Source of the DNA: an uncultured Verrucomicrobiota bacterium
GTDB lineage: Bacteria; Verrucomicrobiota; Verrucomicrobiia; Verrucomicrobiales; Akkermansiaceae
NCBI GenBank assembly: GCA_937867415.1
Contig: CALMKO010000295.1
Coordinates: 1-44,899, forward strand
DNA: 44,899 nucleotides
Reading direction: 5' to 3'
The translations under genes and the position numbers were made by a program. The number at the start of each line of letters is the position of its first letter. The first letter of the stretch is position 1. Below are positions 28,125-44,899 of the stretch, piece after piece. The notes under the pieces are model-generated. The model made no database searches. It saw nothing but the letters and a program-made list of their open reading frames with translations, and was not told the DNA's origin.

Positions 28125-29354
28125 ATGCCAAGAACCGCCGAACTCGACTACCGCAAAACCCCCAAGGGATGGCTCGTCAATGTGCCAGGAAGCCTATCAG
28201 ACACCGGGCGATTCCGTCGCCGATATTTCCAGACACGTGACAAGGCAAAATCAGAATGCCAGCGACTCAAGGAAATTCAGAAGGGGCAGCGTGGACTCGC
28301 TGCCGATATCACCACGGCGACCGCTGAGGACGCAATCAAGGCCCGCGATTTGCTGGCAGGCCACGACGTGACGCTGGCACAAGCGGCAGCGTTCTACGTG
28401 CTGCATCACGACAAGCGAGCAAAGGCACCCACCATGCGGGACGCTTGGAAATCCGCAATCGAACACCGGAAGAATCACCGCAAGGCCACCTTGGAGTCAT
28501 ACCGGAAGATGGAAAAGAAACTTCCGAGCTGGTTCATGGATATGAATTGCCACGACATCACGCCAGATCACATCAGGAAAGCATTGAACGAATACACGCC
28601 CGGAGCAACCGCATGGAAAAACGGACGAGCTTACATTTCGAGCGTGATGGGCGACCTTGTGAAGCTGGAACTCATTCCCGAGAATCCCACAAAGAAGATG
28701 ATGGTGGCCCGTGCCGAGGAAACCGACGACGAGGTTGTCATTTACACGCCGGACGAACTCAAGAACCTCTTTGCCGCCTGCATCGACTATCCAACGATGG
28801 GAGAAGCTGACAGGCTTTGCTCGGAATGCGTGGCACCGTTCGCGTTCATGGCGTTTGCTGGAATTCGTCCCGTGGAAATCACAAAGCTAAAATGGGAAAA
28901 CGTCTCTCTTGAACTCCGAAACATTCGGATCGGTTCTACCATTGCCAAGAAGCTGTATCGAAGAAACGTCCGTATCAATGAAACACTGGCAGCATGGATT
29001 TCCTCCATTCCCGAGGACAAGCGGAAAGGCAAAATCATTCCCGCCCGCTGGCGATACAAAGCTGCCAAGGTCCGCATCAATGCGGGGATCGACGGACGGG
29101 AAATGCAGGACGCCCTGCGGCATTCATTCGGCACCTACACGCTCGCCGTTGAGAACGATCTGGACATGCTCAAGAGCGACATGGGACACGGCACCACCGC
29201 CGTTTATTTCGACCACTACCACAAGGCCGTCACGAAAGCCGAGGCAATCCCCTACTGGCACGTCCTCCCGCCCGGTGTGGAGCTCCCCACCATCGCCGCC
29301 GTGGCATCCCGGCCGACACCCGCAACCATTCAACCCGTGGAATCAGTCGCATAA
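28125..29354 (+). CDS. Tyrosine-type site-specific recombinase/integrase
   Basis: 409 residues starting 176 bp from the tRNA-Phe half. The N-terminal part is an arm-type DNA-binding plus core-binding region (TLAQAAAFYVLHHDKRAKAP to NEYTPGATAW). The catalytic domain has Arg248 in GIRPVEI, box II as DALRHS with Arg332 (the usual His of HxxR is Asp here), His355 in DMGHGT and a nucleophile candidate Tyr365 in FDHYHK (Tyr361 also nearby). It would integrate and excise an element at a tRNA gene. A truncated frame and a tRNA-Ser half lie just downstream. Confidence 0.92.
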   Translation: MPRTAELDYRKTPKGWLVNVPGSLSDTGRFRRRYFQTRDKAKSECQRLKEIQKGQRGLAADITTATAEDAIKARDLLAGHDVTLAQAAAFYVLHHDKRAKAPTMRDAWKSAIEHRKNHRKATLESYRKMEKKLPSWFMDMNCHDITPDHIRKALNEYTPGATAWKNGRAYISSVMGDLVKLELIPENPTKKMMVARAEETDDEVVIYTPDELKNLFAACIDYPTMGEADRLCSECVAPFAFMAFAGIRPVEITKLKWENVSLELRNIRIGSTIAKKLYRRNVRINETLAAWISSIPEDKRKGKIIPARWRYKAAKVRINAGIDGREMQDALRHSFGTYTLAVENDLDMLKSDMGHGTTAVYFDHYHKAVTKAEAIPYWHVLPPGVELPTIAAVASRPTPATIQPVESVA

Positions 29355-30172: not shown

Positions 30173-30910
30173 ATGTCAACCAGTAAACAGCAGCTTCATC
30201 AACCGGATCCGGCCAAACGCAAAAAGATGTCGGGCAAATTCGACACAGACGATTTTGAACCGGTGATCTGGAGCACTCTCGCCTTGAATCCACAACTGGC
30301 CGAGGTTGATAAGGATTTCTTGAAGAAAGAAGATTGCTCACCAGATATCTACACCAAGAATTGGCTTGAGGTCCTTACCTGCCAAAAACGAATTGTCAGA
30401 ATTCCAAGTAAGGACAAGCCCCTCCCTTTGCCCGAACTTTATCCACCCCAAGGGATCATCCCAGATAAAGGTGTGACAGCGGAAAGAATACTTCTACCGG
30501 TGGCTATACTCCTCGCCCGCCCTGTTCATGTGTTATACGGGTTAGGTGCCTCTTTCGAAGGAGAACACCGAAAATGGATTGTCAATGATGTGGACACGAA
30601 GGGTATCAGCCGGAGATGCGCCCAAGCCGCGCTGGGTGCGGCGTGGAAAGGATTTGGCAAAGGCGGAATCAATTTCCCGGCAATCGAATCTGCATCGTTC
30701 AAATTCGCCGTCTCCTACCGAACCCTTGGCGTCAATACAGCTAACCCTCAGGAGGTCACCATGTTGCGTGATGTGGCCCTCTGGATCCACTGGGATATTT
30801 GGGAGCGAAACAAACTTACTCTCGTGAAACGCACGGAAATCCTCAATTCTTGGGGCTACAAATGCACCCCCAAGGCCGTCAAACGGGTGGTTGAGAAAGT
30901 CCTTGGATGA
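30173..30910 (+). CDS. Hypothetical island protein (245 aa)
   Basis: No family recognised. It starts MSTSKQQLHQ with a Lys-rich N-terminus, has a DDFEPVIWSTLALNPQLAEVDKDF segment, a central TAERILLPVAILLARPVHVLYGLG that is hydrophobic enough to be a buried helix, and a C-terminus with a possible helix-turn-helix-like end (EILNSWGYKCTPKAVKRVVEKVLG). No signal peptide. Base composition is lower in GC than the backbone genes, in keeping with transfer. It is convergent with the ParB-like gene, 59 bp apart. It could be a DNA-binding protein of the element, but that is only a guess. Confidence 0.6.
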   Translation: MSTSKQQLHQPDPAKRKKMSGKFDTDDFEPVIWSTLALNPQLAEVDKDFLKKEDCSPDIYTKNWLEVLTCQKRIVRIPSKDKPLPLPELYPPQGIIPDKGVTAERILLPVAILLARPVHVLYGLGASFEGEHRKWIVNDVDTKGISRRCAQAALGAAWKGFGKGGINFPAIESASFKFAVSYRTLGVNTANPQEVTMLRDVALWIHWDIWERNKLTLVKRTEILNSWGYKCTPKAVKRVVEKVLG

Positions 30911-30969: not shown

Positions 30970-31632
30970 CTACACGGCGGCCTTTAGGCTCCTGAACGCC
31001 ATTTCAACCATTTCGAAACTCACCTCCTCGCGGGACAGTTCCCTCTTCACAATCAGGTCGTGGAGACGCTCGATACGCGCCAGGATTTCAGCTTTCTTGT
31101 CCGGCTTCTTTTCGGGCTTTTCATCGTCATCGTCACCGTCACCGAGAATCTGTTTCACCGCCGCTTCGACGTCCTTTTGTTTGGGCTTGCGATTTTCAAC
31201 CGACCCGAGGGCCAACTTCCAGGATTTCACGATTTCGTCATCCGAGAGTGAAGGACCCAATGGCCGGATCTGCCACTCGCTGGCGGGATACTCGGAATCA
31301 GGTAGATCTTGAAGGGTGTTCCGAATCACTTCATCGGCCCGTGCGGCCTGAATGATGCGGTTGGCACGCTTACTAGAACCGCCGCGCAATTCGCAGTATT
31401 TGACCCACCCGCTGGTAATTTCTTTCCAGAGTTCCTCGGATTTGATGCGACGCAACGCCTGTCCGACTATTCGGAAAGAACGCAGATCGTCCACGACAAT
31501 GCTGTCTAACATCGTGAAGGTCGAGGCGCGCGTTTTGATTTCCTCTTGGGTTGTTGCAATTTGAGGTTGCTCACGATCAGTTGCGTTAGTATGATCGTGT
31601 GTGTCGTTGGTTTGTGTTGTTTGGTCGCTCAT
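30970..31632 (-). CDS. ParB-like DNA-binding protein (HTH plus SExQxRPL-type motif)
   Basis: 220 residues. After a polar N-terminus comes a helical region with a helix-turn-helix-like segment (WVKYCELRGGSSKRANRIIQ, residues 76-95) followed by the motif SEWQIRPLGPSLSDDEIVKSW at 118-138. That motif and the later KPKQKDVEAAVKQIL match the DNA-binding part of ParB/KorB-like proteins from plasmids and integrative elements. The C-terminus is acidic (GDGDDDDEKPEKK) then coiled. There is no ParB N-terminal nuclease/CTPase box and no parA beside it. The 400-bp region directly upstream carries three palindromic repeats, a likely binding array. The role would be partition, copy control or autoregulation (inference). 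Confidence 0.6.
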   Translation of the reverse strand: MSDQTTQTNDTHDHTNATDREQPQIATTQEEIKTRASTFTMLDSIVVDDLRSFRIVGQALRRIKSEELWKEITSGWVKYCELRGGSSKRANRIIQAARADEVIRNTLQDLPDSEYPASEWQIRPLGPSLSDDEIVKSWKLALGSVENRKPKQKDVEAAVKQILGDGDDDDEKPEKKPDKKAEILARIERLHDLIVKRELSREEVSFEMVEMAFRSLKAAV

Positions 31633-32036: not shown

Positions 32037-34463
32037 TCAAATTTTGGGCTGTTCGCCCTGAGTAGATTTTTGTGGATCCGGCGGAGCCATCACCTGCGTA
32101 GGATCCTCCGGCCAATTACCGATCACTTTCCGCAATTCTTCAGCGAGAGCAGGTTCCTGACTATCAATTATCGGCAGCGCTTTTTTCATCAAGACAGCAC
32201 GCCGGTCATATTCATCCTTCAGGACCGACTTCATCTCCTCCTCATTTTCTTTCGACTCAATGACGTCACTCGCCGCGCCTTTTCCAAATAGGTAGCGGCT
32301 AAGACCCACAAGAGCCACTTTCGTTTGTGCGGCAACTCCACTTTGGAACTTTCCAGCCTCGCTCTGAATCTCCGCGCGCAGTGCCGCTTCATCCATGCTG
32401 TCATGTTCGGGTGTCCGTCCACCGCGAATTTCCCCGAGGCTGTCCCGGAGTGCTTCAACGCGGGCCTGGTTTTGGAAGTCTGAGATCACCGCTGGAAGAT
32501 TATCGACCGTGGGCTCCCGATTCACGCCCCCCAATGCCTCGAAAACTCGCTTCACGAATCCGCGTTTTTCCCCTTCCAAAACTTCCTCTAGTTCTAACGC
32601 CACTTCTTTTGCTGCTTTTTTTCGCGGCAACCGTTTTGCCACACTTTGGAATACCTTCTTCCAAATTTTCTCCTCCACACTTTTCCGGAACGTACCTATG
32701 CCGGATACAATCTCCTCTCGCAACTTTTCCACTCCTCGCCCTATCGCATCGCGTTCAAACAAATACTCGATTGCCAGCCTGAGTCCACTTGCCTCTGCCG
32801 CAGCCTCCTTGGCGGGAAGGGCGGCTTCCCTTTGGGAAACTGCTGTTTCGCGAGATATGACCGCCGAAAGCTTCAGGTTCGCCATCCCGAGAATAGTAGC
32901 AGCCTTTCTCTCAGCCTCGGCTTCCGCAACTTCCTTGGCAGTTACGGCCAGCCGTCGATCAAGCTCTGCCTCGTGAAGGACTTGCTTTGCTGCTGCGGCT
33001 TCCGCTGTCGCATCATTTCTCAGGCGCTCCAATTCTGTCCGTATGATATCAGCCTCGGCTTTCGCCTTCATGACGTCTGCTGCTACCTCCGACAAAACTT
33101 TCAGTTCGCTGGCAGCTGCTGCCCGATAGTTTTTGGCTCTAGTCAGGGCTCTCTTCGCTATTTTCTTCACCTTCTCCGTATCCTCAGGCGTCTTCAGTTT
33201 GACGCCCGTTGTCCCGGCCTTGTATGCCTCAATGAGGTGGTCACGATATTGTTGCCGCCCCTTTTCGACAAACTCTGCGGGTAATGCGTTTGCCAGAAGT
33301 TCATCAATTTCCTGATGGATTCGGACATCCCGAGCGAAGTCATCGGGCGGGCGGATCCATTCATTGGGAACTTCCCCTTTTTCCTCTTTCTTGCGGGAAA
33401 CCTGCTTTTCGTGTTCTTCCCGCGCACGCTTCCGACAACTCTCCATGGCCTGGGTGCAAACAAGCTCCGTGAATTTTGCTCGCTCGGCAGCCTCTGGTTC
33501 AGTTTTTGCGAGTTCGTCCAGGTCTCCCAGAACATCCAAATGCCGCTTCCAAAAAACAATTCCGGGGCCTGGTCCATGATGACAAAGCGCCTTCGCATCC
33601 CAAAATCGCACCGGAATCGGAAGCCGCTCACACCCATGCTCTGCCTCGGCGAGGTAGGTCGAATGGACCCACAAATCGACATGAAAGTGACCGTCCTTTT
33701 CCTGGATGTGGGGAACCGCCGATGTCACCTTAGCGCCAGCTTTCGGCCCTCGAAACATTGACTCATATTTTTTCCCGAGAGGTTCCAGAATCGACTCAAT
33801 CGCCGCCCGGGCCTCTTCGATCCGACCGACGTTCACCATGAGTTCAAGTGCGCGTGAGAGCCCTGGAGAAACTCCGATGGTGTCCCTAATTGTGACCGAA
33901 TCAGCCTTTGCTTTAATCTGTGCGACGATGCCACCACCCACATCCACCAGTTTTGTCGACTCTGCGTGAAATGAGCGCACATAGGGAATCCCTCCTACCC
34001 ATGTGACTCGGTCAAAAGTTTCCAAGAGTGAATCCATCCGGTTACCCAGTTTCAAAAAGTCAGCCGTATCCTTCGGCCGCACCCAGCCAGCCACGCCCGC
34101 ATCAATGTCCGGCTCGCCTGGCCGGATCTCTCGATAGGGCATCTTGATCTTCCTCTTTGCCCCTGGCCGCTTCTTCTTCTTTTTCTTTCTACCTCTCGCA
34201 TCGACCGGCTCCCCGGGCACGACCTTCGGGATTCGATAGCCCATGTTGTCAGTTTCATCCCGCCGCAAGGCTCCAAAGTTTGATGGAAACGCTGCGAGTT
34301 CCGCAGCGTCGGGATCCGGCACCGCGATGAATTTTTGGGTGGTCCTCTTCGCGAATTTTTTCAGTTGCCCGATATCAGCGAGCTGCTTTTTGGACCGGTC
34401 CGTGCCGTGTCCGCGGCTACCTCGATTACCTCGGCCCCGTGTCGTGTTAGTCCCTTTGCCCAT
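32037..34463 (-). CDS. Putative HUH-type relaxase/replication protein with long coiled coil (808 aa)
   Basis: The first 110 residues are basic and low-complexity (TNTTRGRGNRGSRGHGTDRS; a run of six Lys near 93-98). A globular region at about 110-320 holds PHIQEKDGHFHVDLWVHSTY, giving His259-Phe260-His261 with Asp263 and His267 near, then KALCHHGPGPGIVFWKRHLD. His-hydrophobe-His after a strand is the metal site of HUH nucleases (Mob/Rep). From about 420 to 550 the sequence is a long Ala/Glu/Arg coiled coil, like MobV/Pre relaxases, with a helical tail. No clear catalytic Tyr motif could be placed and no family is recognised, so nuclease function is inference. Its upstream region is the structured hairpin region 34486-34746. 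Confidence 0.5.
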   Translation of the reverse strand: MGKGTNTTRGRGNRGSRGHGTDRSKKQLADIGQLKKFAKRTTQKFIAVPDPDAAELAAFPSNFGALRRDETDNMGYRIPKVVPGEPVDARGRKKKKKKRPGAKRKIKMPYREIRPGEPDIDAGVAGWVRPKDTADFLKLGNRMDSLLETFDRVTWVGGIPYVRSFHAESTKLVDVGGGIVAQIKAKADSVTIRDTIGVSPGLSRALELMVNVGRIEEARAAIESILEPLGKKYESMFRGPKAGAKVTSAVPHIQEKDGHFHVDLWVHSTYLAEAEHGCERLPIPVRFWDAKALCHHGPGPGIVFWKRHLDVLGDLDELAKTEPEAAERAKFTELVCTQAMESCRKRAREEHEKQVSRKKEEKGEVPNEWIRPPDDFARDVRIHQEIDELLANALPAEFVEKGRQQYRDHLIEAYKAGTTGVKLKTPEDTEKVKKIAKRALTRAKNYRAAAASELKVLSEVAADVMKAKAEADIIRTELERLRNDATAEAAAAKQVLHEAELDRRLAVTAKEVAEAEAERKAATILGMANLKLSAVISRETAVSQREAALPAKEAAAEASGLRLAIEYLFERDAIGRGVEKLREEIVSGIGTFRKSVEEKIWKKVFQSVAKRLPRKKAAKEVALELEEVLEGEKRGFVKRVFEALGGVNREPTVDNLPAVISDFQNQARVEALRDSLGEIRGGRTPEHDSMDEAALRAEIQSEAGKFQSGVAAQTKVALVGLSRYLFGKGAASDVIESKENEEEMKSVLKDEYDRRAVLMKKALPIIDSQEPALAEELRKVIGNWPEDPTQVMAPPDPQKSTQGEQPKI

Positions 34464-34525: not shown

Positions 34526-34587
34526 CAAGCCGACTAAATACCCACTTCGTGGCCGCCACCCTTCGGGGGCTGTATTTAGTCGGCTTG
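34526..34587. repeat. 16-bp perfect inverted repeat with two hairpins in its loop (origin-like)
   Basis: CAAGCCGACTAAATAC (34526-34541) is the exact reverse complement of 34572-34587. The 30-base loop contains CCAC-TTC-GTGG (34542-34552) and CCC-TTC-GGG (34559-34567), so the whole can fold as a Y or cross. It lies between two divergent genes, so it is not a terminator. Structures like this next to HUH proteins serve as oriT or as rolling-circle origins; the role here is inferred from position and fold. Confidence 0.6.
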
Positions 34588-34722
34588 GCGCAGCCCCTAC
34601 CGGGTCTGCTTGCTTGCTCTCCGAGGGCCGCGGGAGCGCGGAATGTAGGGTATCTCGCTGAACGCTCGAACCTTTGCCAAATGATGCCCGAGCCGTCTTT
34701 AGGCAGATAGAAAGAACCTGAT

Positions 34723-34746
34723 CTCCCGTTTGAGGTGAAACGGGAG
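34723..34746. promoter_or_regulatory. 9-bp stem hairpin in the divergent intergenic region
   Basis: CTCCCGTTT (34723-34731) pairs perfectly with AAACGGGAG (34738-34746) over a GAGGTG loop. No T-run follows on either strand, so it is not a typical terminator. It adds to the structured nature of the 497-bp gap 34464-34960, which otherwise has no convincing gene. Confidence 0.45.
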
Positions 34747-34847: not shown

Positions 34848-34924
34848 CTAATAAAACTATCAATTTTTGATACAATAATGAATGACGTGAGAACAATTTT
34901 CAATGAGATTGATTGTTTTATTAG
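34848..34924. promoter_or_regulatory. AT-rich nested inverted repeats upstream of the 690-aa gene
   Basis: CTAATAAAAC at 34848-34857 is the reverse complement of GTTTTATTAG at 34915-34924. Inside lie TATCAA-TTT-TTGATA (34858-34872) and CAATGAGATTG (about 34901-34911). TACAAT at 34871-34876 could be a -10 box but has no good -35. This looks like an operator region or unwinding element controlling the gene that starts about 37 bp downstream. Confidence 0.4.
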
Positions 34925-34960
34925 ATTACCAAAACGAAATATTGCCGAAAGTTGTCTGTT

Positions 34961-37024
34961 ATGGTATCAAACCACATGCCCGACCGTGTACATCTCCCAG
35001 AATCCAGACGAAGCGGGTCGTGTTGGAGACCAGGGGGACGCTGGAAATCCCCGAGTTTGGAGGGTGCCGAACGGGAGCGTCTTCTCGCTGATCTGGGCAG
35101 GTCTGAGTCGAAGTCCGTAGGACGCCGCGCGAAACTGCACCCGATTGAACAACGAGTTCGCGATCTCCTTTCGGCCCGGCAAATAGAACTCCGAGACAAA
35201 GGCAAGGATCGGTTCCGGGAGTTTCGGTCAGAACTTGCCCTGCTTTATTTGGGCGGATTTTCTCCCACCTTTGCGCGGGATTTGTTGTGTGACGTATTTC
35301 CTCAAATGGTCGGCAAGCCCGGAGTCCACACGATCAATTCCGCCTATGACAAGGTCTGCAATGGTTTGGTGCAGGGCGGCCTGGCTGACCAACTCGATCC
35401 TTCGGGGCTTCGCCTATTGGAAGAGCATCAGACTGGCCCGTGGGATCCAGAAGCTCCTCCTTGGCTGAGGAGGGTTTTCAATCTTCCCGTATCGAGCGCT
35501 TTGACCGGCGGTGTTTCGGCTGCAACCGCAGCCCCATACGATGCGGGAGATGTTCCTGTTCCCAGGGAGCCGGCTCCCTCAAATCCAGCCATTGACGGCG
35601 TCGAGACATTTGTCAGGCAGTGGGAGATGGTGAAGCGTGTGAAGCCTTCCTTGGGAGAGCCTACAACTGCCGAGCTTCGGATCGGAATCGCCAAGGGTAT
35701 CGATGAGGTTTTGAAAATGAGGGCAAATCTCGAACTGGCACCCTCCGAGCCGGTAACGGAGATCTCTGCCACCTTTTCCCTAAGCGGAGTGTCATTGGAG
35801 GACTCCACCGCGCCCGCCGAGCGCGCGGTCGATTCTAGTTCTGAGAATATCGCAGCTACGCACAATGACCACATTCTGCCACATGAGATGACAGAATATC
35901 CGGCTCCCGTGGAACCGGTTGTCGGCACCGTTGATTCTTCGATTCCGGCCGGCGATCCGATTTCCCCTTCCACCCCAGTCTTGCCATCGACCGTTTCCCG
36001 GCCGGCTCTCTCGGAAATGGCCGCACTCGCGGGGTTTGATGAATGGCCCCCGGGCTGGGGCGAGGAAGACCAGGTGCTTTACGAGCCAATGCATGAACTG
36101 CTCTGCCGCTCTGCTGACTCTCTGATCCTAGACGGGCATGAGACGTTTTTCCCGGAACTTCCCGAAATCCCGCTGGAACCCAATCCTCAGATCGAGTTGC
36201 CGGTCTTCGCGTGGAAAGAAATCACCGAAGGCTCGCGCCCCGTCGAAGTCCCGCCTGGCTTCGGGCTATTTGGTTTCGATGAACTGTGGCATTTGTCCAT
36301 GCCCATGAGCGGCTACACACAGGAGGACTGTCACGGGGAGAAGATTCCAGACATAGCTTGGATCTGCACCCTTGTGGCGGAAGGTATTGTCGAACGGGCC
36401 TTCGGATTGACAAAAGGCACCGAGTCACCATCTGGCCGACGTTACTTGCAATATGGACCACTCTGGAGCGAATCCTTAGCTAGGAAAATGCTCGATATGA
36501 ACTGCCCGAATTGGTTTTACGCAGTGAATCCCAATCGGGTGGAACAGCGAAAACCCCTGTGTTTCGAGGATGTTCCCAAGGACTGCACATGGGTCCCAGG
36601 TTGGGGCTTGTATCCAACAGAGTATTTGAAACGAGTGTTGGCGGCTGATCGGCAAGGCCTTTGCCTCATCTCCACTAATGAGGATCTCCAGAGGAATGAG
36701 GTGCATTTCTACGGCAAGCTGACCCAGGCCCTCGGACCTGCCGGAGTTGAAAACAACGCGAGCGCCTTTCGCTATCGGAAGCCCAAATGGAAGGGCTTCG
36801 TCCCTTTTGCCTTCGGTGCGAGTTTTCGGGATTGCGCGGAGGCATCCACCGATTGGATCAATTTTGCCGACCTGAACGTTTGGTCGGAACAGAATCCCGG
36901 AGCAGAGCCGTTGTTGAAAGCCTTGGCTTCAATCCCGACTGCGATTCACAGAAGTTCCGCTGGCGATGTCGCTCGCGCGATCTCCTCATCGGTTTGGAAA
37001 CGGCGCGATGGCGCACGCCCATGA
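34961..37024 (+). CDS. Large hypothetical island protein (about 687 aa)
   Basis: No family recognised. Start options are TTG 34952, ATG 34961 and ATG 34976; ATG 34961 is used. The N-terminal 140 residues are basic and helical (IEQRVRDLLSARQIELRDKG; FREFRSELALLYLGGFSPTFARDLL), suggesting a DNA- or protein-binding region. A Pro/Ser/Thr-rich acidic linker runs from about 185 to 385. The C-terminal 300 residues are Trp-rich and globular (FGLFGFDELWHLSMPMSGY, NCPNWFYAVNPNRVEQRKP, CTWVPGWGLYPTEYLKRVL). No membrane segments. It is divergent from the HUH-like gene and may belong to the same replication/transfer module. Confidence 0.6.
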   Translation: MVSNHMPDRVHLPESRRSGSCWRPGGRWKSPSLEGAERERLLADLGRSESKSVGRRAKLHPIEQRVRDLLSARQIELRDKGKDRFREFRSELALLYLGGFSPTFARDLLCDVFPQMVGKPGVHTINSAYDKVCNGLVQGGLADQLDPSGLRLLEEHQTGPWDPEAPPWLRRVFNLPVSSALTGGVSAATAAPYDAGDVPVPREPAPSNPAIDGVETFVRQWEMVKRVKPSLGEPTTAELRIGIAKGIDEVLKMRANLELAPSEPVTEISATFSLSGVSLEDSTAPAERAVDSSSENIAATHNDHILPHEMTEYPAPVEPVVGTVDSSIPAGDPISPSTPVLPSTVSRPALSEMAALAGFDEWPPGWGEEDQVLYEPMHELLCRSADSLILDGHETFFPELPEIPLEPNPQIELPVFAWKEITEGSRPVEVPPGFGLFGFDELWHLSMPMSGYTQEDCHGEKIPDIAWICTLVAEGIVERAFGLTKGTESPSGRRYLQYGPLWSESLARKMLDMNCPNWFYAVNPNRVEQRKPLCFEDVPKDCTWVPGWGLYPTEYLKRVLAADRQGLCLISTNEDLQRNEVHFYGKLTQALGPAGVENNASAFRYRKPKWKGFVPFAFGASFRDCAEASTDWINFADLNVWSEQNPGAEPLLKALASIPTAIHRSSAGDVARAISSSVWKRRDGARP

Positions 37025-37976: not shown

Positions 37977-38564
37977 ATGGTAAAATCCCCGTCAGTCCCG
38001 CTTGCTGATCTTGCCCGCATTCTGACGGGGTACACATTCCGTGCTCGTATCGAGAACGATCCGGGCGGGTCCTTCCGTGTGATTCAAGGGAAGGACATCC
38101 GCTCGGACCGCTCGCTCGACGCCCAAAACCTCACCCGCATCCACCTTCCTGATCGCTCCTGGTCGGATCCGGAGAAATGGGTGAAGCCCGGTGACGTCCT
38201 ACTCATGACCCGCGGCGACCACAACTATGCCGTCTTCATCGAGACCGCTCTGCCTCCCACCGTCACCCAGAACTCCTTCTGCACTCTGCGTGTGACCGAT
38301 GAATCTGTCCTTCTTTCCGACTACCTCGCCACTATCCTCAACCAGCCCGCCCTCCAGGCCCGGCTGAAGGCACTCCGCTCCGGCAGTTCCATCCCGAACA
38401 TCACCCTCGGCGCGCTCAAGAATCTCGAAATCCCCCTGCCGCCTCTTCCCATCCAGCGCGAAATCGTCACCCTGTCCCGCTTGATCCACCGCGAGAAAGC
38501 CCTCGCCGACCAGATCCATGCCGCCCGCCTGCGCCAGCTCGACACCCTCGCCGCCTCACTCTAG
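37977..38564 (+). CDS. Half-size type I specificity subunit (single TRD HsdS)
   Basis: 195 residues, about half of a normal HsdS. One target-recognition domain (LADLARILTGYTFRARIEND, VIQGKDIRSDRSLD, KWVKPGDVLLMTRGDHNYAVF) ends in LEIPLPPLPIQREIVTLSRLI and one conserved helix (REKALADQIHAARLRQLDTLA). Single-TRD S proteins are known to pair as dimers so that the methyltransferase reads a palindromic bipartite site. It sits 1 bp after the 230-aa gene and 14 bp before hsdM. A second, two-TRD HsdS lies at the end of the window. Confidence 0.82.
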   Translation: MVKSPSVPLADLARILTGYTFRARIENDPGGSFRVIQGKDIRSDRSLDAQNLTRIHLPDRSWSDPEKWVKPGDVLLMTRGDHNYAVFIETALPPTVTQNSFCTLRVTDESVLLSDYLATILNQPALQARLKALRSGSSIPNITLGALKNLEIPLPPLPIQREIVTLSRLIHREKALADQIHAARLRQLDTLAASL

Positions 38565-38578
38565 CCACACTTCCCATC

Positions 38579-40105
38579 ATGCCCAAAATCCCCACCGCCA
38601 ATCAGGACGAAATCAACGACATCGTCTGGAAAGCCTGCGACACCTTCCGCGGTGTCATGTCGTCCGACCAATACAAAGACTACATCCTCATCTTCCTGTT
38701 CCTGAAATACCTCTCCGACGTCATCAAGGAGAGACGCGAGGACCTAGAAAAGCAATTCCCCGGCAAGCCGGAAATGGTCAAGCGCCGCCTCGAACGCGAG
38801 CGCTTCCAGGTCCCCGCCGGCTGCGATTTCGACAGCCTCTACCGCCAGCGCGACGCCGACAACCTCGGGGAAATCATCGACCGCGCGCTCTGGGACATTG
38901 AGGATGCGAACAAAGCCAAGCTCGAAGGCGTGCTCCACACCGTGTCCTTCAACGACGAGAAACGGTTGGGTGAAACGAAAGATCGAAACGCTCGTCTCAA
39001 ACACTTGCTTAATGACTTCCACGATCCCCGCTTGGACCTCCGCCCCTCGCGCATCGGCAACCTCGACGTCATCGGCAACTGCTACGAATATCTCATCGCA
39101 CGCTTCGCCTCCGAGGGTGGCAAGAAGGGTGGCGAGTTCTTCACACCTCCCGAGGTTTCTACCCTCATGGCGAAACTCGTGAATCCCCAGCCCGGTCACC
39201 GCATCTGCGATCCCACGTGCGGCTCCGGTTCGCTGCTGGTCAAGGTGGCCCGTGAGATCCGCGAGTCGATGGGCAAGGTTTCCCAGGATTTCTCCCTCTT
39301 CGGCCAGGAAATCAACAGCGGCACCTACGCGCTTTGCCGGATGAATATGTTCCTCCACGGCATCGACAGCGCCCGCATCGTCTGGGGTGACACCCTGAAC
39401 AACCCCAAGTTGCTGGAAGATGACACCCTCAGCCAGTTCGACATCGTCGTCGCCAATCCTCCCTTCTCCCTCGACAAGTGGGGTGCGGACAAAGCCACCA
39501 ACGACCGCTTCGGCCGCTTCAAGCGCGGCATCCCGCCGAAATCGAAGGCCGATTTCGCCTTCATCCTCCACATGATCGAGACCGCCAAGCCCGGCTCCGG
39601 CCGCGTGGCGGTGGTCGTTCCCCACGGTGTCCTGTTCCGCGGTGCCGCCGAGGGAGCCATCCGCCGCCAGCTCATCGAAGAAAACCTGCTGGATTGCGTC
39701 ATCGGTCTGCCCGCCAACCTGTTTTTCGGCACCGGCATCCCCGCCGCCATCCTGCTTTTCGACAAAGGGAAAAAGCACAAGGACACCCTGTTCATCGACG
39801 CCAAGGAGCACTTCGCCCAAGGCACCAACCAGAACAAGCTCCGCCCCGAGGACATCGACCTCATCGTTTCCACCCACCGCGCCTTCAAGTCCGTCGAGAA
39901 ATTCGCCTACCGCGCCACCCTGGAGGAAATCCGGGAGAACGACTACAACCTGAACATCCCCCGCTACGTCGATACCTTCGAGGAAGCCGCCGTCATCGAC
40001 CTCCCGGCCGTCCAGCAGGAAATCGACGACCTCGAATCCCAACTCACCACCGTCCGGACGGAAATGCGGGGCCACCTGAAAAAGCTCGGCCTTACCCCAA
40101 AATAG
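38579..40105 (+). CDS. hsdM: Type I DNA methyltransferase HsdM (N6-adenine)
   Basis: 508 residues. The N-terminal HsdM_N helical domain (DEINDIVWKACDTFRGVM, ILIFLFLKYLSDVIKERRED) is followed by the catalytic domain: GGEFFTPPEVSTLMAKLV, SAM motif I DPTCGSGSLL at 211-220, motif IV NPPF at 293-296 and a C-terminal helix for S binding (PAVQQEIDDLESQLTTVRTEM). It transfers methyl to adenine at the site chosen by HsdS. It is downstream of the half-size S gene and is followed by an AT-rich gap of 115 bp. Confidence 0.95.
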   Translation: MPKIPTANQDEINDIVWKACDTFRGVMSSDQYKDYILIFLFLKYLSDVIKERREDLEKQFPGKPEMVKRRLERERFQVPAGCDFDSLYRQRDADNLGEIIDRALWDIEDANKAKLEGVLHTVSFNDEKRLGETKDRNARLKHLLNDFHDPRLDLRPSRIGNLDVIGNCYEYLIARFASEGGKKGGEFFTPPEVSTLMAKLVNPQPGHRICDPTCGSGSLLVKVAREIRESMGKVSQDFSLFGQEINSGTYALCRMNMFLHGIDSARIVWGDTLNNPKLLEDDTLSQFDIVVANPPFSLDKWGADKATNDRFGRFKRGIPPKSKADFAFILHMIETAKPGSGRVAVVVPHGVLFRGAAEGAIRRQLIEENLLDCVIGLPANLFFGTGIPAAILLFDKGKKHKDTLFIDAKEHFAQGTNQNKLRPEDIDLIVSTHRAFKSVEKFAYRATLEEIRENDYNLNIPRYVDTFEEAAVIDLPAVQQEIDDLESQLTTVRTEMRGHLKKLGLTPK

Positions 40106-40180
40106 CGATCAAACAGCCATCATGGATGATTGAGCACGATTTTAAAAAATCTATAGATCATAGCCCAACCATTTAAAAAC

Positions 40181-40209
40181 TTGCAAAATTATCTAAATAA
40201 AGATATTTT
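40181..40209 (+). promoter_or_regulatory. Weak promoter candidate before the nucleotidyltransferase pair
   Basis: In an AT-rich gap after hsdM, TTGCAA (40181-40186), 17 bp, TATTTT (40204-40209) precede the GTG start at 40221. The gap is far richer in A/T than its neighbours, so the pair may be transcribed on its own. Confidence 0.28.
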
Positions 40210-40220
40210 CACAATACTTC

Positions 40221-40814
40221 GTGAGCGAACTTACTGAAAACACCTTGGAACAGACACTCAGTCTTCTCGGCACCCTGCTTGAGGAGACCGGAGTCACTTA
40301 CTCGCTGGTCGTCGCAGGTGGGAGCGCCCTTTTGGCTCAGAAAATCACCTCCCGCAACACCCACGACGTCGATGTGATCGCCCTGGATGGAGGCGACACG
40401 CGCGCTCACCCCTTGCCCCAGACGCTCACCGACGCTGCTGCACGGGTGGCCAAGGAATTGGATCTGGACTCCAACTGGCTCAACAGCTCCGTGTCTTTGT
40501 TCATCGGTCGCGATCAGTTGCCCGAACTCACGTGGTGGAGCTTCGACACCCGCACCTACGGCTCCTGCCTCCGCGTCAGCTACATCCGCAGGAACGGACT
40601 CATCCTCCTCAAACTCCACGCGGCGCTGGACCGTGATGAACCTCGCGATCTCACCGACCTCACCGCCCTCAATCCCTCTGCGGAGGAAACCGCGCGTCAC
40701 CTCGATTGGATCCTGAGGGAAATCCTCGGACAAACCACGCACCCAAAAATTTCACAGATCCTCAACCACCTTGGCCATGGCCATCTCCTTTCCAGATACC
40801 AGACAGCACCTTGA
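40221..40814 (+). CDS. Nucleotidyltransferase-fold protein, AbiEii-like toxin candidate
   Basis: 197 residues from a GTG at 40221. The N-terminal part carries the nucleotidyltransferase signature VAGGSALLAQ (GGS at 33-35) followed by NTHDVDVIAL with Asp49 and Asp51 as metal ligands. The helical rest (RLDWILREILG-like end, with DEPRDLTDLTALNPSAEE) agrees with DUF6036/AbiEii proteins. AbiEii-type enzymes transfer nucleotides to tRNA or other targets and act as toxins in type IV systems. The stop lies 38 bp inside the next gene, so the two are translationally coupled. Confidence 0.72.
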   Translation: MSELTENTLEQTLSLLGTLLEETGVTYSLVVAGGSALLAQKITSRNTHDVDVIALDGGDTRAHPLPQTLTDAAARVAKELDLDSNWLNSSVSLFIGRDQLPELTWWSFDTRTYGSCLRVSYIRRNGLILLKLHAALDRDEPRDLTDLTALNPSAEETARHLDWILREILGQTTHPKISQILNHLGHGHLLSRYQTAP

Positions 40815-41811
40815 CGAATTGGCCGTCAATTTCCTCTGGCGCCAGTGGTCTTCCATCGGCGTCGCCGGTGGCGCGCGCTCCAGCGATACCTGGATGATCG
40901 ATCCCGAGGCGCTGGTGCTCGCCACTTCGCGCTACGGTCGCCACGACCCACGCCTGATGGATGAGTCGCTCGACTGGCTCGCCCGCAACGGTCTCCGGAT
41001 CAACGTGCTTCGCCTGCGCTCGCTCGATCAAGCATGGCCCGGCGTCGCCGATGGTCGCGTGCTCGCCGCCATCTCCGGCATTCTGGGGAAGCAATCGGTC
41101 CTGCGCAAATGGCGGGACCTCGGTCAGCCTGCATCTTCGGATGCCGAGCCGGAGCCACTCTTCTATTCCGCCAAGGGCGGCTACCTGCCAGTTCTTGGCG
41201 AGCCCGACCCTACCTTCCAAGCCGCCGGCCTTCTGCGCGGTGCCGTGGAGCATCGCGGCATGAGCAAGGCTCCCGATGCCCGCGTGTCCGGAAACCTGAT
41301 CTTCCTCCTTCGCTCCCTCTTCGGGGTGAACGCCCGGGCGGAGATCTTCGCCTGGCTTCTGGTGCATGGCAGCGGAAACCCCACCGCCATCGCGCGGGAT
41401 ACCGGCTACTTCTTCAAATCCGTCCAGCTCACACTCAACGAGCTGGAGGAATCCTGCCAGATCCTCTCCTCCCGCCAGGGCCGGGAGAAAATCTATCGGG
41501 TCCCCGCCGATTCCTGGCACTTCCTGCTCGCCCCCCACGGGAGCGCGAAGGACGAACGCGTCTTCCCCGTCTGGCTCGATTGGATGCCCGTCTTCGCCAT
41601 CCTCACCCGCCTCTCGGAAACCCTCGCCATTCCCGGCCTCGACGAAAAGTCCGAGAGCTTCCAGGCCATCAAGTTCCGCGACGCGCTGGAATCGCTCCAG
41701 CCCGCCATCGACCGCGTCGCCGTCGCCCACGGCTGGCGCACCACTCCCGACCTCCGCGGCGCGGGTCTCATTCAATCCCTGCTCGCCGATCTCGATTCCC
41801 TCCTCGACTAA
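40777..41811 (+). CDS. Winged-helix regulator, partner of the nucleotidyltransferase (AbiEi-like antitoxin candidate)
   Basis: 344 residues from the ATG at 40777 (MAISFPDTRQHLDELA); the frame could also start at TTG 40771. The N-terminal half is mixed alpha/beta with a conserved NFLWRQWSSIGVAGG. A winged helix follows at about 185-255 (ARAEIFAWLLVHGSGNPTAIA, then FKSVQLTLNELEESCQI), and the rest is helical. It overlaps the upstream gene by 38 bp. This layout (nucleotidyltransferase plus wHTH) fits an AbiE-like toxin-antitoxin or abortive-infection pair, here inside a type I RM locus. The gene order is toxin first, opposite to canonical abiEi-abiEii. Confidence 0.65.
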   Translation: MAISFPDTRQHLDELAVNFLWRQWSSIGVAGGARSSDTWMIDPEALVLATSRYGRHDPRLMDESLDWLARNGLRINVLRLRSLDQAWPGVADGRVLAAISGILGKQSVLRKWRDLGQPASSDAEPEPLFYSAKGGYLPVLGEPDPTFQAAGLLRGAVEHRGMSKAPDARVSGNLIFLLRSLFGVNARAEIFAWLLVHGSGNPTAIARDTGYFFKSVQLTLNELEESCQILSSRQGREKIYRVPADSWHFLLAPHGSAKDERVFPVWLDWMPVFAILTRLSETLAIPGLDEKSESFQAIKFRDALESLQPAIDRVAVAHGWRTTPDLRGAGLIQSLLADLDSLLD

Positions 41812-41843
41812 CCTCTCTTCCTCTAACTCCTATTTGTTTACCC

Positions 41844-43232
41844 ATGGGTCTTGACCTCACAAAGACGCAAAAACGCATCCGAGGGATGTTTTGGCTTCCT
41901 GAACAGGAGGACAAAACATTCAGCGGAATCCTGCGTTTGAAAGCAGGGAAATCCGCGCGACTGGACACCGCGTCCTTCAACAACGAAGGCATGGCCAACT
42001 GGTTCCCAAACCGGCCCAAGCCTGAGAAAGGGAAAACCATCACGCTGACGGGAGACGATTTCTACAAGGCGATGAGCCTCCCCTCGCCGAAGATTATCCA
42101 CGGGCACGATGAACAGGGTGCGCCGGTCACGTTGCTCAACTGCCACGCCGGTTCATCCCACAGCACCCTGGCAATGGCGAGCCATAGGTTTTCATGCAAT
42201 GCGGCGATCTTGGGCGTTCATTTGCAAAAAGACGACCTCAACTGCCACGGGATCAGGCTGCACCTCGACCATCTTGACACTTGGGTCGCACGACGTGCGT
42301 TCCAGAAATACTCGGAATCCTATGAGACCGAGGATGGCGAACGAAAGCTTTCCAAGCTCACCATTCCGATCTCCCGCAGCCTTTCAATTCCGCTCGCCCT
42401 CCCTGGTTACTCGAAAAGTGAATTTTTCTGTGCCTGGAGTCTCAAAGACGGCGAGACGGAACTCAGCCTGAAAAGCCGGGTTTATCTCGACCGCTACTTC
42501 GACACCCCACGCGATTGGTCCGAAGTGCTCCATGAAGTCCACCGCTGGCAGTGGCTTCTGAGCCTCGCTACCCGGCGTGCCGTGGATGTCAGGGAGTTCG
42601 CTCTCTATCGTTCGGATGTCAGGCATCCCATCGGTAAGGAGTCGATGAGACCCTGCCATGTTTGGATGAAACGCGACCACTCCCGGAAAGCACCCGAATC
42701 AAGAAGCTCTGGCTACGACTTCCATTTCACCTATTCCGATGTGGAAAACGTCTTTCCTGCGTTGATCGAAAAATGGAACCAAATGCACAAACCCTGGGCC
42801 GCAGTCCTGCATCGCTTCTTTGCCATCAGTCATCGCCGCGGTCTTTGGCTCAACGAGGAATTCCTCTTCCTCGCGCAGGCAGTTGAATCACTGCACCGCG
42901 CCCGCTCTGGCGACACGGATGGCAAAGGAATCGTTGATCGCGCCGCCAAATCAGCCTATTTGAACTCCCCGACAGAACTTCAGGAACTGCTCGGGGACCG
43001 TGGAACCTTCATCCGCTTGTTTCGCAAGACCCGCAACTACTGGACCCACTACGGAGAACCATCGCCCGAAACCGATCCCGAGGTCCTCGACGATCTCGAT
43101 CTTCACGACTTCAGTCAAAAACTCCGCTGGATCGTTGAATCCGCACTCCTTCACGAACTCGGCGTTCCTGACCACTGCATCTCCAAAGTCTGGAGCCACC
43201 AATGGAGAGGCCGCATCGTCACTTTCGATTGA
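41844..43232 (+). CDS. ApeA-like anti-phage HEPN protein
   Basis: 462 residues from the ATG at 41844. The N-terminal beta-rich domain (FWLPEQEDKTFSGILRLKAG; IIHGHDEQGAPVTLLNCHAG; ILGVHLQKDD) matches the ApeA N-terminal domain. The C-terminal helical part contains the HEPN RNase motif: KTRNYWTHYG with Arg397 and His402 (R-x4-H). ApeA proteins are single-gene phage defences thought to cut RNA, probably tRNA, on infection. It follows the winged-helix gene by 32 bp and lies upstream of hsdS. Confidence 0.8.
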   Translation: MGLDLTKTQKRIRGMFWLPEQEDKTFSGILRLKAGKSARLDTASFNNEGMANWFPNRPKPEKGKTITLTGDDFYKAMSLPSPKIIHGHDEQGAPVTLLNCHAGSSHSTLAMASHRFSCNAAILGVHLQKDDLNCHGIRLHLDHLDTWVARRAFQKYSESYETEDGERKLSKLTIPISRSLSIPLALPGYSKSEFFCAWSLKDGETELSLKSRVYLDRYFDTPRDWSEVLHEVHRWQWLLSLATRRAVDVREFALYRSDVRHPIGKESMRPCHVWMKRDHSRKAPESRSSGYDFHFTYSDVENVFPALIEKWNQMHKPWAAVLHRFFAISHRRGLWLNEEFLFLAQAVESLHRARSGDTDGKGIVDRAAKSAYLNSPTELQELLGDRGTFIRLFRKTRNYWTHYGEPSPETDPEVLDDLDLHDFSQKLRWIVESALLHELGVPDHCISKVWSHQWRGRIVTFD

Positions 43233-43287
43233 AACGAATTCACATCTTTCCAGCCACCTCAATTCCCTCCTCGGCTAACCACCCGCC

Positions 43288-43367
43288 ATGCCCAAGCTCT
43301 CCCTCAACGCCTCGAAGAAAACCAAACACACCCCCGCCGGGGAAATCCCGGTGGATTGGGGGTGGGC
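43288..43367 (+). pseudogene. Truncated duplicate of the hsdS start (80 bp)
   Basis: These 80 bp are identical to 43737-43816, the first 26 codons of the two-TRD hsdS (MPKLSLNASKKTKHTPAGEI and on). After 43367 the sequence leaves hsdS and turns into repeat-rich DNA. The frame stays open by chance to 43716 but is not protein-like. The copy sits at the normal distance after the ApeA-like gene, so it is probably the original hsdS start, cut off by an insertion or duplication of 449 bp. Confidence 0.85.
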
Positions 43368-43575
43368 GGATATTTCGCGAACGGCGTTGGCGATGGTTTG
43401 GATGATTGCGCAAACCGCATCGAGGATGATTCGGGCCATTCCGCGGACCGCATCGGGGGACGTTTCGGCACCAGGGCATCGGGATTTGGCGGTTTCATTT
43501 GCGATTCCATGGCCCTCGCATTCACACCCTCAGCCCTTCGCTAGGTTCCCATGGCCCTTCAGGCCATCCACCCGG

Positions 43576-43647
43576 CCCAACAGGTCGTCCCATTCTCGTC
43601 CCAACGGGTCGCCTCTGTCCCGGCCCAACGGGTCGAAAGAACCCAGC
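43576..43647. repeat. Three 24-bp tandem units with conserved CCCAACRGGTCG
   Basis: CCCAACAGGTCG at 43576, CCCAACGGGTCG at 43600 and again at 43624: exact 24-bp spacing with 12 conserved and 12 variable bases. They lie in the 369-bp segment between the two hsdS starts. Confidence 0.75.
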
Positions 43648-43713
43648 CCGGGGCTGAGCAAAGCGATGCCCCGGGTTCCCATCCCATTCACATACTGCGC
43701 CCTGAAGGGGCGC
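43647..43713. repeat. REP-like hairpins before hsdS
   Basis: CCCGGGGC (43647-43654) pairs with GCCCCGGG (43668-43675) over 13 bases, and GCGCCC (43697-43702) with GGGCGC (43708-43713) over TGAAG. Such GC-rich palindromes are common as dispersed intergenic repeats in this phylum. They lie 23-90 bp upstream of the hsdS ATG and may damp or alter its expression. Confidence 0.55.
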
Positions 43714-43736
43714 TAGAAAACGCTGAATCGCTAACC

Positions 43737-44899
43737 ATGCCCAAGCTCTCCCTCAACGCCTCGAAGAAAACCAAACACACCCCCGCCGGGGAAATCCCGG
43801 TGGATTGGGGGTGGGCCGAATTGAAAACGCTTGCAAGTATTCGAAGCGGCAGCACCCCATCCAAAGAAAACTCCTTCTACTGGAATGGCCATATACCTTG
43901 GCTGAGCGCGAAAGACCTCAAGTGGTCGAGGGTCAGCACCTCAATCGACAGAGTCACTGATAAAGCGGTCAAAGACGGAGCACGTTTAGTTCCGGCTGGC
44001 TCGATACTCGTACTGGTCAGAGGCATGACACTGTTGAAGCGCTTTCCCGTCGCACTCACCACTGTTCCAGTGACGTTCAATCAAGACCTCAAGGCAATAG
44101 TCCCGAATGAAAATAAGGTGACGGGACAATACCTTGCATATTTTTTGGACACCTCAGGCGACGACATTCGAGCAGGCGCTACGATAGCAGGACATGGCAC
44201 TGGGCGTCTTGCCCTAGATGTCCTAACTGAGTTCCCCATCCCTCTCCCCCCGCTCCCCGAGCAACGCCGAATCGCGGACATCCTCACCACCTGGGACCGG
44301 GCCATCGAGACGCTGGAATCCCTCATCTCCGCCAAAGAACGCCGCAAGCAAGCGCTCATGGAGCAGCTTCTCTCGGGCAGGAAACGTCTCCCGGGCTTCA
44401 AAGGCAAATGGGGCAAAGTCAAATTGTCGGAATTGCTAACGCCAATCATCAGAGCAACCGCGAAGCCATCATCGCCGTTTCTGGCAGCAGGAATCCGATG
44501 CCATGGGCGAGGAGTTTTCCTGAAGCCTGATTTCAAGCCCGCCGACATCATGCTCGACGAACTCTACGAGATTCAAACCAATGACCTCGTGGTGAACATC
44601 ACCTTCGCATGGGAAGGTGCCATCGCGATTGTTCCGGAGGAAGCGAACGGCGCACTCGTCTCGCACCGTTTCCCGACCTATCTGTTCAAACAGGATCTCA
44701 CCTGCTCGGAGTTCTTTCGCCACGTCATTCAAACCCACGGATTTGTCTTCGAATGCGGCCTTGCCTCTCCCGGCGGCGCTGGACGCAATCGAGTGTTGAG
44801 TAAAAAGAACTTCCTCAAGATCGCAATTCCCTGTCCGGATCTTCAAGAACAACAAGCCATCGCCGCCATCCTCGACACCGCCGACCGCGAACTCACCCT
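43737..44899 (+). CDS. hsdS: Type I specificity subunit HsdS with two TRDs, cut by the window end
   Basis: 387 residues visible, open to the right edge. The first 26 residues are the duplicated segment. TRD1 follows (IPVDWGWAELKTLASIRSGS, WLSAKDLKW, VPAGSILVLVRGMTLLKR) to EFPIPLPPLPEQRRIADILT and the conserved helix WDRAIETLESLISAKERRKQ. A second TRD (GKVKLSELLTPIIRA; LYEIQTNDLVVNITFAWEGA) ends in IAIPCPDLQEQQAIAAILDT. This is the standard two-TRD layout for asymmetric bipartite sites. hsdR is expected downstream outside the window. Confidence 0.9.
   Translation, partial: MPKLSLNASKKTKHTPAGEIPVDWGWAELKTLASIRSGSTPSKENSFYWNGHIPWLSAKDLKWSRVSTSIDRVTDKAVKDGARLVPAGSILVLVRGMTLLKRFPVALTTVPVTFNQDLKAIVPNENKVTGQYLAYFLDTSGDDIRAGATIAGHGTGRLALDVLTEFPIPLPPLPEQRRIADILTTWDRAIETLESLISAKERRKQALMEQLLSGRKRLPGFKGKWGKVKLSELLTPIIRATAKPSSPFLAAGIRCHGRGVFLKPDFKPADIMLDELYEIQTNDLVVNITFAWEGAIAIVPEEANGALVSHRFPTYLFKQDLTCSEFFRHVIQTHGFVFECGLASPGGAGRNRVLSKKNFLKIAIPCPDLQEQQAIAAILDTADRELT

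Follow-up and report, generated by a model that had tools for sequence, protein, structure and literature searches.

A probable HUH-type relaxase of verrucomicrobial mobile elements, absent from the protein family libraries searched

Plasmids and integrative elements are classified by their relaxase, which also decides whether they are regarded as mobilizable. The accessible part of PMC12857230 describes a catalytic His in MOBV relaxases, as well as the MOB-HEN group (ColE1 MbeA), whose members are active relaxases with an altered motif III. The MOBL family (RelLS20 of pLS20) is presented in the accessible part of PMC5313138 as a relaxase family invisible to domain databases, which was found via a 17-residue stretch around motif III.

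The stretch of DNA analysed here (the window; 44,899 nucleotides, contig CALMKO010000295.1 of an uncultured Akkermansiaceae bacterium) encodes an 808-aa protein, initiated at an ATG codon, which a sequence-only reading had placed in a possible new relaxase or replication family reminiscent of MobV/Pre or Rep proteins. A relaxase-type family is the best-supported part of that proposal, and membership of MobV/Pre or Rep could not be shown. We consider the protein to be probably the relaxase of an integrative mobilizable element, representing an HUH-type family that the searched libraries do not contain. This is the best reading because a motif, a conserved upstream repeat and a mobile context come together at the locus. 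The features of the window are listed in Table 1; G066, G378, G061 and G202 denote the genomes holding the other members of the family.

Table 1. Features of the window around the gene for the 808-aa protein
Feature	Position	Strand	Remarks
Tyrosine recombinase, likely integrase of the element	28125..29354	+	PF00589, 33 bits vs cut-off 27.1; phrog_1, E 1.1e-23
245-aa ORF	30173..30910	+	No family named
220-aa ORF	30970..31632	-	No family named
808-aa candidate relaxase	32037..34463	-	ORF; relatives in G066, G378
C-terminal module, residues 657-808	32040..32495	-	Common to G378, 47% identity
HUH-like-motif domain, residues 184-316	33516..33914	-	40% identity to G066
Candidate motif III, residues 252-263 (H252, H259, H261, D263)	33675..33710	-	Shuffles, alignments
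Tyr161, leading candidate catalytic residue	33981..33983	-	Also in G066; 91 residues ahead of H252
Inverted repeat, gene-side arm	34526..34541	.	CTTG end on - strand (34526-34529)
Inverted repeat, distal arm	34572..34587	.
15-mer common to window and G061 gene upstream	34614..34628	-
Divergent 690-aa ORF, TTG start	34952..37024	+	No family over cut-off
Probable cargo	37977..44897	+	Type I restriction and ApeA-like genes
HsdS-like piece	37977-38564	+
HsdM	38579-40105	+
ApeA-like HEPN protein	41034-43232	+	ApeA_NTD1 134 bits, HEPN_Apea 45 bits; PADLOC PDC-S58, Cas13-ApeA
Second HsdS	43551-	+	Runs off contig

The 808-aa protein and its relatives

The protein has few relatives, and every one detected belongs to a genome of the window's order (Verrucomicrobia). 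The window protein matched 3 of 195 family genomes and 4 of 386 order genomes, its own genome counted in both. With the G378 protein as the query, matches were obtained in 3 of 254 genomes, and the G061 protein matched 2 of the 73 genomes of its genus; a profile of these two proteins matched 3 of 386 genomes of the order, the query genomes again being counted. A further profile (A2), run against 387 genomes of the phylum, matched the window's own genome only. No relative was found in genome contigs searched with the window protein, nor in viral contigs or phages, and none among plasmids when the window, G378, G066 and G061 proteins served as tblastn queries. The distinct members are the window, G066, G378, G061 and G202 proteins; a contig-edge fragment in G182 (65% over residues 117-153, lacking the motif region) was excluded from the member counts. 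The G066 contig is identical to CAKZNV010000240.1 of a Rubritalea MAG. The GTDB family of the window's genome and Rubritalea also holds Akkermansia and Luteolibacter.

Searches of Pfam, PHROGs and NCBIfam returned no relaxase or Rep match to the 808-aa protein, in agreement with the earlier impression that the whole matches no known family. The only PHROG match was weak (a PHROG of unknown function, residues 405-456, E 0.002), and the sole NCBIfam row lay far under its cut-off (13.4 vs 204 bits). The Pfam relaxase models gave no match at E <= 1 for the window, G066, G378 and G202 proteins, or at E <= 0.5 for G061, and the Pfam rows of the G378 and G202 proteins were under cut-offs and on other parts or folds. 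An identity with Mob_Pre (MobV/Pre) was dropped, since it had no Pfam match at E <= 1. Sequence searches of the PDB gave a best E of only 0.03 or worse. Membership of a named MOB family is not supported. Among the titles listed from the largely open literature searched, none dealt with a relaxase family like this one.

Several features reported for the protein were confirmed in the sequence. HFHVD occupies residues 259-263, and more His and Gly residues follow in the stretch ALCHHGPGPG (residues 292-301), which aligns with ALCHYGSGQG of G066. The start, described as Lys-rich, has K or R at 13 of the first 60 positions, and the proposed long coiled coil is reflected in residues 401-640, where A, E, K, R, L and Q make up 60-70% and the best heptad windows start at about 454-459 according to a crude script, which is not a coiled-coil predictor. 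The HUH string as such is unremarkable by chance (491 of 5000 shuffles of the protein). The longer pattern His-x5-8-His-U-His, with a third His ahead (the 3H motif; H252 before HFH in the window protein), is rare by chance, being found in 28 of 5000 shuffles, and it is rare also for the G378 and G061 proteins (18 to 61 of 5000).

The domain occurs in two forms. The first, formed by the window and G066 proteins, carries the motif G-[HQ]-[FL]-H-V-D-L-W-x-H, of which H-V-D-L-W-x-H is conserved between the two genera; H-(x6 or x8)-H-V-D is retained in both proteins, on a strand of the same type. The G066 motif reads GQLHVDLW, with Gln at the first His of HFH and H187 standing ahead of QLH; therefore, the conserved pair of this form is His-Val-Asp, and both proteins have Asp in place of His at the third motif position. 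The HUH-like motif reported earlier thus holds for the window as HFH and is less canonical than claimed. The second form comprises the G378, G061 and G202 proteins (41% identity between G378 and G061), to which the clean HUH is confined (H-x7-H-x-H, as HIH or HVH). Here VHRM-x3-D-x-H-[IV]-H-[IV]-QYTM, a textbook three-His HUH motif, is invariant in all three members. Judged by pairwise comparison, the two forms are hardly more alike in sequence than expected by chance, the cross-form scores being matched in 9 (window-G378), 66 (window-G061), 22 (G378-G066) and 391 (G061-G066) of 500 shuffles. The form-versus-form profile score of 34.2 was reached in none of 300 column shuffles (best shuffle 29.9, reversed control 21.2), and a three-row version of the profile scored 33.2 (0 of 200 shuffles, reversed control 15.3). 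The hhalign probability between the forms was 5-22%, MAFFT and hhalign disagreed on which window His faces which G378 His, and the stretch after the motif revealed no link. The related C-termini of the window and G378 proteins do link the forms. Taken on sequence alone, the connection between the two forms is weak. The forms are joined by the weak profile similarity, this C-terminal module and the upstream DNA described below.

The suggested search for a catalytic Tyr brought up Tyr161, the first candidate for the catalytic residue, which is conserved in G066. In all five members a Tyr is found 72-100 residues ahead of the first His, but these Tyr residues do not align as one motif, and no Tyr was shown to be conserved across the five. 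Y414, which follows the motif in the stretch lacking a cross-form link, was also considered.

Upstream DNA and mobile context

The region that the gene faces had been pointed out as a hairpin fit to be the target of the protein. It contains an inverted repeat, predicted to be part of the most likely target, whose 16-bp arms pair perfectly and stand 30 nt apart; the arm on the gene side ends 62 bp short of the start codon. When 121 nt around the repeat were folded as single-stranded DNA, z-scores of -7.0 (+) and -7.4 (-) were obtained, and none of 200 shuffles equalled them on either strand. A second full copy of the repeat was not found in the window's genome, where the other matches were pieces of 14-23 bases. 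In the relatives, the distance from the end of an inverted repeat to the start codon is 55 bp in G378, 57 bp in G061, 82 bp in G066 (where the arms measure 15 bp and the loop 3 nt) and, with a one-base bulge allowed, 58 bp in G202, whose repeat the ungapped script did not list. The tetranucleotide CTTG ends 62 and 56 bp (window), 56 bp (G378), 53 bp (G061), 55 bp (G202) and 74 bp (G066) before the start, the G061 distances being taken from the ATG at L014:7865 (39 and 35 bp from a TTG 18 bases earlier). In the window, G378, G061 and G202, CTTG lies at the outer end of the repeat closest to these positions. CTTG is unique in the intergenic stretch of G378 and of G066. The sequence of the repeat differs between the elements, and its place before the gene is kept. 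Other repeats were seen at 236 bp in G061 (slightly stronger), 268 bp in G202, 384 bp in the window and 240 bp in G378. When the last 250 bp were shuffled, a repeat with its end at 50-65 bp arose in 1 (window), 0 (G378) and 2 (G061) of 400, and none of the shuffled repeats had CTTG at its end (400 shuffles for each of the three), both the 50-65 bp span and CTTG having been picked after the data were seen. The repeat with its CTTG is the pattern that would be expected of an oriT beside a relaxase gene. It may also be an autoregulation operator; operator and oriT can be the same DNA.

A 15-mer, GCCCTCGGAGAGCAA, is located 150 bp (window) and 135 bp (G061) upstream of the genes on the same strand. 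This is one of six pairs compared; shuffling gave a shared 15-mer 1 time in 200 in a first run, and 7 (same strand) and 10 (opposite strand) times in 20000 in a larger one. The 15-mer is absent from G378, G066 and G202. It was detected in 8 of 254 family genomes (reversed control, 1 of 254); the six places besides the window and G061 lie inside chromosomal-looking ORFs, two of them in the same gene of two species, and the G061 copy also falls inside a mechanically called 104-aa ORF of the intergenic stretch. The GCCCTC within it resembles the RSF1010 nic site, a likeness given no weight here. The same intergenic region of the window holds a second short hairpin at 34723-34746 (CTCCCGTTT / AAACGGGAG, 6-nt loop) and a near-perfect 17-bp repeat (34848-34864 / 34908-34924).

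The candidate genes adjoin tyrosine recombinase, serine recombinase or IncQ-type replication genes. We read this part of the window as an integrated element with defence cargo: it has a tyrosine recombinase as its likely integrase, ordinary chromosome (dihydroxy-acid dehydratase, amidase) lies to its left, and it extends past the contig end. A 230-aa ORF is located between the 690-aa ORF and the type I restriction genes. These restriction genes are interrupted, as the ApeA-like gene sits between HsdM and the second HsdS. A PF02534 coupling protein was not found in the window's draft genome (95.75% complete) or in G378, G061 and G182; G066 and 5 of the 14 control genomes did give a match. With none detected in the draft genome, transfer would need a helper.

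The window neighbours (690, 245, 220 and 230 aa) showed no detectable kinship to the accessory genes of G378, G061 and G066. Among these three, the divergent small genes next to the candidate show kinship for the pairs G378-G061 and G061-G066 (0 of 500 shuffles), and less clearly for G378-G066 (4 and 24 of 500). ParA neighbours were not used as a link, because only that of G066 exceeded the Pfam cut-off (MipZ), that of G061 being weakly like it (2 of 500) and that of G378 like neither. The G202 element has a serine recombinase (Resolvase, 63.6 bits). An IS21-like pair (transposase-like and IstB-like ATPase ORFs, named by eye) lies beside the G378 candidate at L006 11447-13666. MmeI-type restriction-methylase genes are present on both IncQ-like elements, at L014 1272-4085 (G061) and L009 1791-4505 (G066).

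Relaxase, replication protein or DNA-binding protein

The G066 contig (14.6 kb, 36% GC) has no terminal overlap, so its circularity is not shown. A RepC-like gene that passes the Pfam cut-off and an AAA_25 gene are present on it, both separate from the candidate gene. Tandem 22-bp repeats at L009 10300-10408 adjoin these two genes and are probably an IncQ-like replication origin of the Rubritalea contig. The same contig holds the hairpin GCCAACTCAA / TTGAGTTGGC twice, at L009 8895-8946 and 12631-12682, 3.7 kb apart, perhaps as terminators. In G061, a RepC-like match under the cut-off and AAA_25 genes likewise stand apart from the candidate. RepC was sought in five genomes, of which only G066 and G061 were positive; the window's own genome had no match. 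This replicon context bears on the possibility that the 808-aa protein serves replication, either as a rolling-circle Rep nicking the hairpin to replicate the excised element or as a primase or initiator replacing IncQ RepB at a single-strand initiation hairpin. The HUH motif is common to Rep proteins and the hairpin folds strongly as a single strand. IncQ replicons need a primase, and no other relaxase or primase was seen on the G066 contig in 13 scanned of 14 listed ORFs of at least 100 aa. However, G066 and G061 possess replication genes of their own, G066 together with the 22-bp repeats, apart from the candidate; the repeat varies in sequence between the elements at a constant position before the gene, and a basic N-terminus with a long C-terminal part would fit a relaxase better. 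We regard a replication role as unlikely.

Structure prediction, proposed earlier for residues 110-330, was run on residues 96-474 of the window protein with a two-sequence alignment. The model reached a pLDDT of 49.2, with the motif strand under 50, and the G066 model (two sequences) reached 47.1, with most of the motif stretch 129-201 above 60. Both poor models placed the motif on a strand following strand-helix-strand. At E <= 0.001, Foldseek returned nothing for either model in the PDB, nor for the G066 model in the viral library. In a second look at the G066 model with VIA, 9 of the 50 listed rows touched the domain before residue 356; six of these were HUH enzymes (five F TraI, one ISDra2 TnpA; Z 4.3-4.7, 89-138 residues aligned), and the remaining three were HMG-CoA reductases with similar scores (Z 4.3-4.5). 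None of the 50 rows listed for the window model was HUH. Because the models are poor, weak or missing fold-search rows were not counted as evidence, and we infer the HUH fold, which such models do not show.

These models leave some room for a non-HUH DNA-binding or segregation protein that autoregulates at the upstream repeat and whose His-rich strand is fortuitous. The frequency of the HUH string in shuffles, the QLH of G066 and the fact that a repeat before a gene may be a mere operator all agree with such a protein. On the other hand, the three-His spacing is kept in all members of the second form and is rare in shuffles of G378 and G061, and H-V-D-L-W-x-H has been conserved between genera. 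We consider such a protein unlikely. That the window form is a degenerate, inactive relaxase descendant kept as a binding protein is very unlikely: the Asp at the third motif position of both its members would suit this idea, but the motif block has been conserved in two genera along with the sequence around it, and active relaxases with an altered motif III are described in the accessible part of PMC12857230 (MOB-HEN).

The 808-aa protein as a relaxase would bind the inverted repeat upstream of its own gene and nick one strand near the CTTG at which the gene-side arm ends, using a divalent metal coordinated by motif III (H252, H261 and D263, perhaps H259). It would stay covalently on the 5' end after the nick, perhaps through Tyr161, and the C-terminal module might lead it to the conjugation channel of another element, so that transfer would take place in trans. 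In the best reading, an oriT would lie beside the gene, and the element would be mobilizable and carry the type I restriction and ApeA-like genes. The broader proposal, in which our confidence is evenly divided, is that verrucomicrobial mobile elements carry a new family of relaxases. One of its branches would have swapped the His-U-His metal site for His-U-Asp while its oriT stayed of the same type, with a repeat that ends in CTTG about 55-62 bp ahead of the gene, and elements would have traded catalytic domains and C-terminal modules with one another. A family that current models miss would make verrucomicrobial plasmids and islands seem immobile. The element would then serve to spread a type I restriction system and an ApeA-like defence gene. 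A His-U-Asp metal site in an active relaxase would be interesting mechanistically, and the idea can be put to a direct test through the proposed oriT.

Comparison with known systems

The family resembles the MOBP, MOBQ and MOBV relaxases in the three-His motif with HUH of G378, G061 and G202, as that motif is given in the accessible parts of PMC12857230 and PMC5313138. Further likenesses are a Tyr 72-100 residues ahead in all five members, the repeat near the gene and the mobile context. Unlike in those families, none of the five members is matched by a Pfam relaxase model, the domain is not placed right at the N-terminus, and the window and G066 proteins have His-U-Asp. With the IncQ-type plasmids (RSF1010 group), G066 shares a RepC match over the cut-off, AAA_25 and tandem 22-bp repeats, and G061 a sub-cut-off RepC match and AAA_25; in contrast to these plasmids, the candidate has no MOBQ match, no RepB primase was seen and the window's genome lacks a RepC match. 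MOB-HEN, compared by description only from the accessible part of its source, is similar in that motif III departs from three His, and differs in having HEN where H-H-D is found here. MOBL, described in the accessible part of PMC5313138 as nearly confined to Firmicutes and set beside the five members by description only, provides the precedent for a relaxase family missed by domain databases.
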